Origin: a virus
Length of the DNA: 34,595 nucleotides
Reading direction: 5' to 3' (one strand)
Virus record (IMG/VR): IMGVR_UViG_3300033388_002136
Coordinates: 1 to 34,595 of that record
Shown here: positions 18,524-32,346 of the stretch, in pieces
Layout: every line of letters starts with the position of its first letter
How positions within the stretch are numbered: the stretch's first letter is position 1
The notes under the pieces: model-generated
The model's input: the letters and a program-made list of their open reading frames with translations, nothing else
Databases searched by the model: none
Told to the model about the DNA's origin: nothing
Made by a program: the position numbers and the translations under genes

Positions 18524-18547
18524 CCCACCCCTAACATAGGTGTAAAT

Positions 18548-19003
18548 GTGAACCAAGAAGAATTAAAAGCAAAACTTGATTATGATCCTGAAACTGGAAT
18601 TTTTACGAGGGAAGGGGAAATTGCTGGCACTATTACTAATAATGGTTATGTGCAAATATCTATAAATAATGAACCATATCTAGCGCACAGATTGGCCTTT
18701 CTATATATGGAAGGAAAATTACCAAAAAATTGTGTTGATCATATCGACCGATGTAGATTGGATAATAGCTGGACAAATTTAAGACACGCAACAAAGGGAG
18801 AAAATCAGTATAATAAAAAGGATAACAATAAATGTATAGGGGTAATGTTTAGCAAGGGTAAATATTGGCGCGTTCGTTCACCTAGGATTAAAGGAGCAAG
18901 AATACATTTAGGACATTCAATAGACTTTTTTGAAGCATGCTGCTTGAGAAAATCATGGGAAGCTGCTAATAATTGGGTGGCTCCATTTGAGGGGGCGATA
19001 TGA
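18548..19003 (+). CDS. HNH homing endonuclease with AP2-like domain
   Basis: 151 residues, GTG start with AGGTG upstream. The N-terminal half shows the repeated pattern of this family (LDYDPETGIFTRE, GYVQISINNEPYLAHRLAFLY). The HNH core is VDHIDRCRLDNSWTNLR (D64-H65, N77) with a later N86. Residues 96-143 (IGVMFSKGKYWRV...) look like an AP2 DNA-binding domain. Free-standing homing endonuclease inserted in the early operon; it cuts a target DNA site to spread its own gene. Neighbours overlap by few bases, so the insertion is recent or well adapted. Confidence 0.85.
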   Translation: MNQEELKAKLDYDPETGIFTREGEIAGTITNNGYVQISINNEPYLAHRLAFLYMEGKLPKNCVDHIDRCRLDNSWTNLRHATKGENQYNKKDNNKCIGVMFSKGKYWRVRSPRIKGARIHLGHSIDFFEACCLRKSWEAANNWVAPFEGAI

Positions 19004-29979: not shown

Positions 29980-32346
29980 ATGCCTATGTCAAAAGAACGA
30001 TTACACCAATTACTTACTGAGAAAGCCAAAGCCCTTAAATACGACAAACTGAGAAACTTCGACCCTTACGTGTGGCAGCAAAAGTTTGTTAACGACAAGG
30101 CGATGTCAAAAGGACTGCGCTGTGGAAATCAGCAAGGAAAATGCACTTCGTTTAGTACGGTTATTAATACGTCATCTGGTAAGAAACGGATGGGTGATAT
30201 ATTTGGTACTGAATGTGAGGTATTAACCTTTCCCGACAAGGAGCCGAGAAAGGTCTTAGGATGGGTTAGGAAGCCTAAAGAAGAGTGTTTTAGAATTACG
30301 ATGTCGGATGGCCAGTGGATTGAGTGTCCAAAAGGACATCGAATTTTGGTCGGGTCTGACTACCTCTTTGTTTCAGAGATTTTACAATCGCTTCCCGACA
30401 GCGTCTTTTTCCGTCAGGAGTCCACTTTGGGCATTTGCCGGTTAATTCATGCTTTAGATGTTCGGCGTTACTACCAAAGACTGCTAGATTATCTGGATGA
30501 TTATTTAGTGGATCGCCGTCTATGTGATGGACAACTTCTTTCCGACCAAGATAGCGTCCAAGTTTTTGCTCCATTACAAGACGATGCTCAGAAACATAAT
30601 TGCCTCTGGTTTTATTTGGATGGTTTGGCGAGTAAATGTACAAATATCCTTTCACGAGGCAAGTACCGCCTTTCCAATCTGGGTGACGCTCTCCGGACTT
30701 CGGCCCAGTACGTTGTTTCTTCAAACCAAATCGTTTCATCCGGCTTTCGATCGTTCTTCGATGACAGCCAAAATGGTCAGCTATCAAACGGGTTTGAATG
30801 TCATCTGCAACCATTTGACGTAATACCTCTACATCTATCTGAATCTTATCAGTACCCATTATTATCTCCTGTATCCGTATGTGGAAACCATATTGTATCA
30901 ATCAAGTCGGTTGGCTTCAAGACTTTATATGATATGGAGGTTGAGGGGAGGCATAACTATATTGCAGGCGGAATGGTTCATCACAACACATACGTTGGTT
31001 GCGCTGCTGATGCTTTTGACCTAACTGGGGAATACCCTGATTGGTATGTGGGGCATAAATTCACCCATCCTGTAACGGTAGTTGTTGGTTGTATCAATAA
31101 TGATAAAACCCGCGATATCCTCCAAAAAGAGCTTTTCGGTAATCCGATTGAGTGGGAGAAAGAATTAGGGACTGGCTGGATACCCAAAAGGTGTATAGGG
31201 AAGATACAGAAGAAACGCGGAGTCCCAGATGCCTTTTATAATGTAAGGATTAAACACTTCACGGATGGGGTTTTTGATGGATGGTCACAAATCGTCTTCT
31301 TAGCTTACGAAATGGGTAAGGCGACATGGATGGGACATAAAGCCCACGTTACCCATTTAGACGAAGAACCCCCTGAAGAAATTTTAGAGCAGGCATCACG
31401 AAGTTCTATCGCCACCAGTGGCCGGATCAGGATTACATGGACTCCTGAGAACGGAATGACCAAAGTAGTAAAATTGGTTCAGGATAAATGGAGTATGCAC
31501 ACAGCAGAATGGGCTGATGTTGCGGGAGAAGACTTCACTATTGAGGTTGAAGGAGAGGAGTTCGAGTTTAAGACGGTTTACACGTTGAAAGGTCGAAAAG
31601 GACATCTTGATAAAAAGAGCGTTCTTTCTGCCCAAACAAATATTCTCCCTTATCAGATGAAGATGAGGATGAGAGGAATACCCGTTCTAGGTTCAGGTTT
31701 GGTCTTTGCTTACCCTGAAGACCAGATTAAATGCGAGCCGATGTCATTTCCAGACCATTTCTTATTTCTGGACGCTTTAGATTTTGGTGGATTGAGTTCA
31801 ACGGCTCATCCAACAGCCTTCGTGAGAACCGCATACGACCCTGATAATGACGTTATATACATCTATGACGGATTTCGCTTAAAAGGCCGTGAGATACCTG
31901 AGATTGCCTCTCACATCATAATGAAGCCTAATGCCGACATTATTCCCGTAGCGTGGCCGCATGACGGTAATAAAATCACTGGTCAGGGACAGTCTACAGC
32001 CGATCAGTATTTAGCTGCTGGTGTGAATATGTACGAGACTTTTGCTACTAATCCTCCGGCTGAGAATCAGATCGAAGGCAAAGGCGGGATTCAGATAATG
32101 CCCGGAATTACGGATATGTCTACGAGAATGGCAGATGGACGTCTTAAAGTCGTAAACACAGTAAATGATTTTTTTGAGGAATTTAGACAATATCATATGA
32201 AAGACGGAAAAATAGTCGATGTTGATGATGATTTTATGTCTGCTACACGATACGCAGTTATGTTTAAGAGATTTGCGGTTAAATTAGAGCAACCAAAGCC
32301 TTATGTGTCGAGTTTTGAGAATGTTGGCGGGTGGATGAGCGCATGA
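29980..32346 (+). CDS. terL: Terminase large subunit (TerL) with intein in the Walker A motif
   Basis: 788 residues before splicing; removal of residues 55-336 gives a 506-residue TerL. The N-extein ends GNQQGK (residues 49-54), and T337 completes the Walker A lysine-threonine. Walker B is VTHLDEEPP (D461-E462), with TWTPENG as the coupling motif. The nuclease half has D598 and D601 (LDALDFGG), KITGQGQSTADQY and a DVDDD cluster (747-751). TerL pumps DNA into the capsid and cuts it. The start may be ATG 29980 or 29986; no ribosome site is clear. The intein must splice for ATPase activity. Confidence 0.88.
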   Translation: MPMSKERLHQLLTEKAKALKYDKLRNFDPYVWQQKFVNDKAMSKGLRCGNQQGKCTSFSTVINTSSGKKRMGDIFGTECEVLTFPDKEPRKVLGWVRKPKEECFRITMSDGQWIECPKGHRILVGSDYLFVSEILQSLPDSVFFRQESTLGICRLIHALDVRRYYQRLLDYLDDYLVDRRLCDGQLLSDQDSVQVFAPLQDDAQKHNCLWFYLDGLASKCTNILSRGKYRLSNLGDALRTSAQYVVSSNQIVSSGFRSFFDDSQNGQLSNGFECHLQPFDVIPLHLSESYQYPLLSPVSVCGNHIVSIKSVGFKTLYDMEVEGRHNYIAGGMVHHNTYVGCAADAFDLTGEYPDWYVGHKFTHPVTVVVGCINNDKTRDILQKELFGNPIEWEKELGTGWIPKRCIGKIQKKRGVPDAFYNVRIKHFTDGVFDGWSQIVFLAYEMGKATWMGHKAHVTHLDEEPPEEILEQASRSSIATSGRIRITWTPENGMTKVVKLVQDKWSMHTAEWADVAGEDFTIEVEGEEFEFKTVYTLKGRKGHLDKKSVLSAQTNILPYQMKMRMRGIPVLGSGLVFAYPEDQIKCEPMSFPDHFLFLDALDFGGLSSTAHPTAFVRTAYDPDNDVIYIYDGFRLKGREIPEIASHIIMKPNADIIPVAWPHDGNKITGQGQSTADQYLAAGVNMYETFATNPPAENQIEGKGGIQIMPGITDMSTRMADGRLKVVNTVNDFFEEFRQYHMKDGKIVDVDDDFMSATRYAVMFKRFAVKLEQPKPYVSSFENVGGWMSA
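30296..30859 (-). CDS. HNH homing endonuclease encoded antisense inside the TerL intein
   Basis: 187 residues from the ATG at 30859, which has AGGAG six bases upstream. An N-terminal HTH (about 20-48, IQTRLIADHFGCHRRTIESR) is followed by the family signature HPDWKGG (59-65), GYLYIYSPNHPN, NYVSEHRLVMEQKLGR and the HNH core EVVHHIDGDPLNNHPDNL (H111, H112, D114, N124) with H134 and H137. The basic tail KRRCREAIVKSLKQR is also typical. The last 20 or so residues are read from the intein N-terminal domain. A complete, ordinary homing endonuclease; only its position is odd. Confidence 0.88.
   Translation of the reverse strand: MGTDKIQIDVEVLRQMVADDIQTRLIADHFGCHRRTIESRMKRFGLKKQRTGPKSGERHPDWKGGTCLVKGYLYIYSPNHPNKTRGNYVSEHRLVMEQKLGRYLGRKEVVHHIDGDPLNNHPDNLAVFGSNAEHLKHELTGKCPKWTPDGKRRCREAIVKSLKQRGSQTRPKFDVLLDTQSTGHPTS
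30892..30920 (-). promoter_or_regulatory. Sigma70-like promoter of the antisense HNH gene
   Basis: On the minus strand TTGAAG (30920-30915) and TACAAT (30897-30892) are 17 bp apart. The start would be near 30885, about 26 nt before the HNH ATG, leaving room for its AGGAG site. It overlaps the coding sequence of the intein C-terminal splicing domain. Confidence 0.65.

Follow-up and report, generated by a model that had tools for sequence, protein, structure and literature searches.

We identified an intein in the gene for the large terminase subunit (terL) of a phage whose probable homing endonuclease is not a domain of the intein polypeptide, but a separate gene on the opposite DNA strand. 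The element was found in a 34,595-nucleotide stretch of DNA that constitutes a whole viral record (IMG/VR record IMGVR_UViG_3300033388_002136, hereafter the window). About 100 related loci, including nine cultured phages, are built the same way, which looks like an undescribed but common architecture of mobile intein. A preliminary description made from the sequence alone had proposed a two-gene homing unit, in which a splicing element and an HNH nuclease are read from opposite strands and the nuclease can be made independently of terL expression. Our analysis supports this reading and shows that the unit belongs to a whole family, although splicing, antisense expression and cutting of the intein-free site are inferred from sequence.

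Anatomy of the element

The sense strand carries one uninterrupted 788-codon open reading frame (29980–32346, plus strand) with TerL motifs (Terminase_6C, 5e-12). It consists of an N-extein (30142 being the first intein position, the N-extein spans 29980–30141), a 282-residue intein (30142–30987, plus strand), and a C-extein (30988–32343). The intein interrupts the Walker A motif between lysine and threonine (GNQQGK^TYVG). All of the class-1 residues are present: C1, the block-B histidine H66, the penultimate H281, the terminal N282 and the +1 threonine, of which the first four are invariant in 17 aligned inteins. The Pfam intein splicing match of the window is 2.6e-6, which is below the curated cut-off. 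However, the profile of the set matches many solved inteins, and DnaB, DnaE, RecA and gp41-1 inteins top the lists. Structure prediction indicates that residues 1–90 (30142–30411) and 243–282 (30868–30987), the N- and C-terminal splicing domains, fold as a HINT intein. In contrast, the sense-encoded spacer between them (residues 91–242; 30412–30867) matches no endonuclease and is predicted to be disordered (pLDDT under 50).

On the minus strand, a complete gene of 187 amino acids lies inside the intein (30296–30859), with its ATG at 30859 and its TAA stop at 30296–30298. The product contains an N-terminal helix-turn-helix (HTH) region (about residues 10–45; 30725–30832, minus strand) and an HNH_3 catalytic domain (residues 92–128, EHRLVME...EVVHHIDGD...N; 30476–30586, minus strand), with matches to Pfam HNH_3 (6e-10) and the PHROG HNH endonuclease (1e-25). 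The last ~38 codons of the gene (30296–30411, minus strand) overlap the sense codons of splicing block B, which refines the preliminary description. The antisense frame is confidently predicted to fold (mean pLDDT 87.5). Although a Foldseek search with this model gave no significant PDB match (the best being I-HmuI, E 0.49), a second comparison showed that the HNH part resembles I-HmuI (1u3e; VIA Z 6.6, rmsd 3.8, 79 residues aligned). Both have an HNH domain fold and helical DNA-binding parts, but the HTH of the new protein is N-terminal. The window also contains a small ORF at 18524–19000 (plus strand) with a weak HNH-like match (VDHIDRCRLDNSWTNLR), which is probably a separate free-standing HNH endonuclease.

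A Shine-Dalgarno sequence, AGGAG (30866–30870, minus strand), lies six nucleotides before the HNH ATG. A promoter-like site, TTGAAG-17-TACAAT with an extended –10 (TG), lies 32 nucleotides before the ATG (30892–30920, minus strand) and agrees at 9 of 12 positions. This site is weak alone, since promoter-like sites in the window are not much above shuffles (six found against 3.3 expected), and only the family-wide test described below is informative. No group I intron or other RNA element was found near the region, and a split intein was rejected because the sense ORF is continuous.

A family of phage inteins with antisense HNH genes

Viral contigs and phages were searched with HNH proteins alone, and every hit was classified by its antisense strand. 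This search yielded 46 HNHs (the window, two Pectobacterium phages and 43 viral contigs) that lie wholly inside an antisense ORF of more than 350 amino acids with intein motifs, always in phase 1. About 100 other HNH relatives are free-standing or otherwise placed. Two loci (L102 and L108) carry ordinary same-strand, in-frame HNH inteins in what look like ribonucleotide reductases of an archaeon and a bacterium, and L108 seems to hold a second intein. Three further loci (L076, L078 and L095; about 0.7–4.4 kb in each) carry HNH_3 genes antisense in a different phase (0), inside very large ORFs (604–2508 amino acids) that show no intein motifs. A single query with the window intein gave only one weak locus, because the insert is not conserved in the sense frame. 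In cellular genomes 0 of 25 hits were antisense-in-intein, and the element thus looks phage-specific at this sensitivity. In plasmids only five weak HNH relatives were found.

In a reverse search, an alignment of intein C-termini alone returned 304 relatives, of which the best 80 loci were classified. Of these, 61 carry an antisense HNH, 17 are mini-inteins of 129–159 amino acids, two are unclassifiable, and none has a same-strand HNH. The alignment was made from members of the family, so these proportions describe this lineage rather than all inteins. We used the same set to ask whether the reverse ORF is degraded in related inteins. Of the 61 antisense HNHs, 58 are open for 160 amino acids or more, two (L181 and L185) lie at or near a contig end, and one (L183) is a remnant within a 148-amino-acid intein. 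After removal of six contigs found in both searches, the union is about 100 loci. A divergent subfamily (L187, L193–L197, L213, L217 and L218) encodes antisense nucleases of 229–349 amino acids with HTH domains and a weak HNH_3 core (GWVIHHMNE), also in phase 1.

The cultured members are Pectobacterium phages Ymer, Abuela, Sabo, Koroua, Amona, Taid and Pappous, Dickeya phage Setonix, and Pseudoalteromonas phage PHS3. In the annotated Pectobacterium phage records examined (L049, L051, L156, L157 and L159) TerL is left as hypothetical and the antisense HNH is unannotated, whereas in PHS3 the HNH is annotated and TerL is truncated inside the intein. The host proteins comprise several TerL families, a SNF2/DEAD-type helicase (L020) and a primase/MCM-like protein (L122). 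Insertion points are Walker A between Lys and Thr, Walker A before (S/T)GK, a site near Walker B, and a helicase site. In one TerL (L030) the C-terminal part contains a second intein-like insert in addition to the antisense-HNH intein.

Dual coding, control sequences and transfer

The phase is the same wherever it was measured: each sense codon is the reverse complement of HNH codon positions 2, 3 and the next 1, and thus the wobble base of each frame is a non-wobble base of the other. In 34 non-redundant elements there are 0 sense stops across 6,828 HNH codons, against 245 expected when synonymous codons are permuted within each gene. In contrast, 98 control HNH relatives show 364 against 414. 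Between relatives, sense codon position 3 varies most in exteins and splicing domains. Within the HNH stretch, however, sense position 2, the HNH wobble base, varies most, and the pattern reverts after it. For example, differences between L004 and L009 at sense positions 1, 2 and 3 are 18, 77 and 18 in the HNH but 82, 49 and 206 in the C-extein (pooled HNH wobble 644 against 294 at position 2, p 9e-31). The HNH protein is therefore under purifying selection, while the sense spacer only has to remain open. Nothing obvious forces the one phase, and we interpret it as common descent. The HNH tree requires only four changes between intein and free (about 50 in shuffles), although its forks are weakly resolved, and one or few origins are likely.

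The nuclease gene lies between blocks B and F, the canonical endonuclease position whose conservation is discussed in PMC6801210, and its putative control elements lie in the codons of the C-terminal splicing domain. First in-frame ATGs have a Shine-Dalgarno in 28 of 64 elements (5.6 expected). Sigma70-like promoters are enriched in the 150 bases upstream (p 1e-6 to 1e-7 against the same segment's sense strand and against exteins), and this enrichment is absent in mini-inteins (p 0.008). Perfect TTGACA-16/17-TATAAT sites are present in L032, L035 and L063, and PHS3 shows TTGACA-17-GATAAT by eye. However, not every member has a recognisable Shine-Dalgarno or promoter, and neither is clear in Ymer. 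These sequences support independent expression of the nuclease only indirectly.

Some inteins are nearly identical between phages whose exteins differ by 4–15%, which is a homing signature. Differences in intein and extein are 0 of 903 against 37 of 834 bases for L056/L058 (p 1e-12), 6 of 948 against 35 of 462 for L012/L014, and 24 of 945 against 136 of 900 for L120/L121. This signature was seen in relatives, not for the window's own copy. Dual coding may slow change a little, but it does not alone explain the pattern, because in L012/L013 and L194/L196 the inteins diverge as fast as the exteins. Intein-free alleles also exist, as the interrupted site FVAGFG|TGKSQT in Ymer corresponds to contiguous FVAGFGTGKSQT in Klebsiella and E. 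coli phages. HNH and splicing-domain distances correlate only moderately (r 0.61), and HNH tracks the extein nearly as well (0.58), such that strict co-inheritance as a unit is not proven.

Interpretation and relation to known systems

We consider it highly likely, in the absence of biochemical evidence, that this is a mobile class-1 intein whose homing endonuclease is an autonomous antisense transcription unit. In this model, sense transcription of terL makes a TerL-intein precursor, from which the HINT halves splice out together with a meaningless disordered spacer encoded opposite the nuclease gene. Antisense transcription from a promoter in the codons of the C-terminal splicing domain makes a free HTH-HNH protein, which cuts or nicks the intein-free Walker A site of another phage's terL during co-infection, and recombinational repair then copies in the whole element. 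Selection keeps the sense frame free of stops by restricting codon choice in the nuclease gene.

Alternatively, the HNH could be a separate parasite nested in the intein, which recognises HNH-less mini-inteins rather than intein-free terL and homes into them. Mini-inteins without HNH do exist at the same sites as full ones (L201/L195 and L212/L227), and the HNH and splicing-domain distances are only partly congruent. However, low-divergence blocks cover the whole intein including both splicing halves (L056/L058 are identical over 903 nucleotides, and L120/L121 differ at 2 of 72 splice-domain third positions). In addition, one constant phase fits one old insertion better than repeated invasions, and the HNH remnant in the near-mini intein L183 suggests decay. 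We regard this alternative as unlikely, although it cannot be excluded. It is very improbable that the HNH is a DNA-packaging accessory of TerL, like the HNH proteins beside terminase genes of HK97-like phages, located for co-regulation with packaging. Most copies lie in terL, and HNH proteins that aid terminases are known (mentioned in PMC11855218), but the same unit sits in a helicase (L020) and a primase/MCM-like protein (L122), is absent from mini-intein alleles, and is opposite in direction to terL. Although some coding sequences tend to have long antisense ORFs, a chance shadow is excluded by the stop count, the codon-position data, and the confident predicted fold of the antisense frame only.

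Mobile inteins are described as one polypeptide with a nested endonuclease. Mycobacteriophage TerL P-loop inteins (PMC5050341) share the host gene and P-loop region, including one site between Lys and Thr, as well as class-1 splicing motifs and a nuclease between blocks B and F. However, their nuclease is an in-frame LAGLIDADG domain, rather than a separate HTH-HNH gene on the other strand. In ShiLan-type hidden HNH insertions in phage DNA methylases (PMC11855218), an HNH gene is likewise read in another frame than the host ORF, which stays open, but it is on the same strand, without splicing domains or a Shine-Dalgarno. An HNH gene in another frame on the same strand within a DNA methyltransferase gene of Mycobacterium phage Constella (gp104/gp105; L161, 1782–3209) is apparently such an insertion. 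Group I introns with antisense homing endonuclease genes (Didymium rDNA L2066, PMC9548176) are also self-splicing elements with an antisense, independently expressed nuclease. However, this is an RNA intron in rDNA with a His-Cys nuclease, and its sense strand is not protein-coding, so there is no dual-coding constraint. 'Fractured genes' appear to be split inteins with a free-standing endonuclease gene between the halves (Dassa et al. 2009), in which the host ORF and intein are broken in two, while here the sense ORF is continuous. We found no description of an antisense nuclease inside a continuous intein in full-text searches, which did not cover all of the literature.

The architecture involves roughly 150–300 codons of dual coding, in which one frame is a real enzyme and the other is only required to stay open. 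It provides a clean natural experiment on overlapping genes, points to a place in inteins that tolerates long arbitrary sequence, hides homing endonucleases from annotation, and suggests how a nuclease can be expressed independently of a late host gene. More tentatively, antisense encoding might be the ancestral, dominant design of a large phage intein lineage at P-loops, which would uncouple nuclease timing from late terL expression through a promoter hidden in the splicing domain and whose antisense transcript would also tune the host gene.
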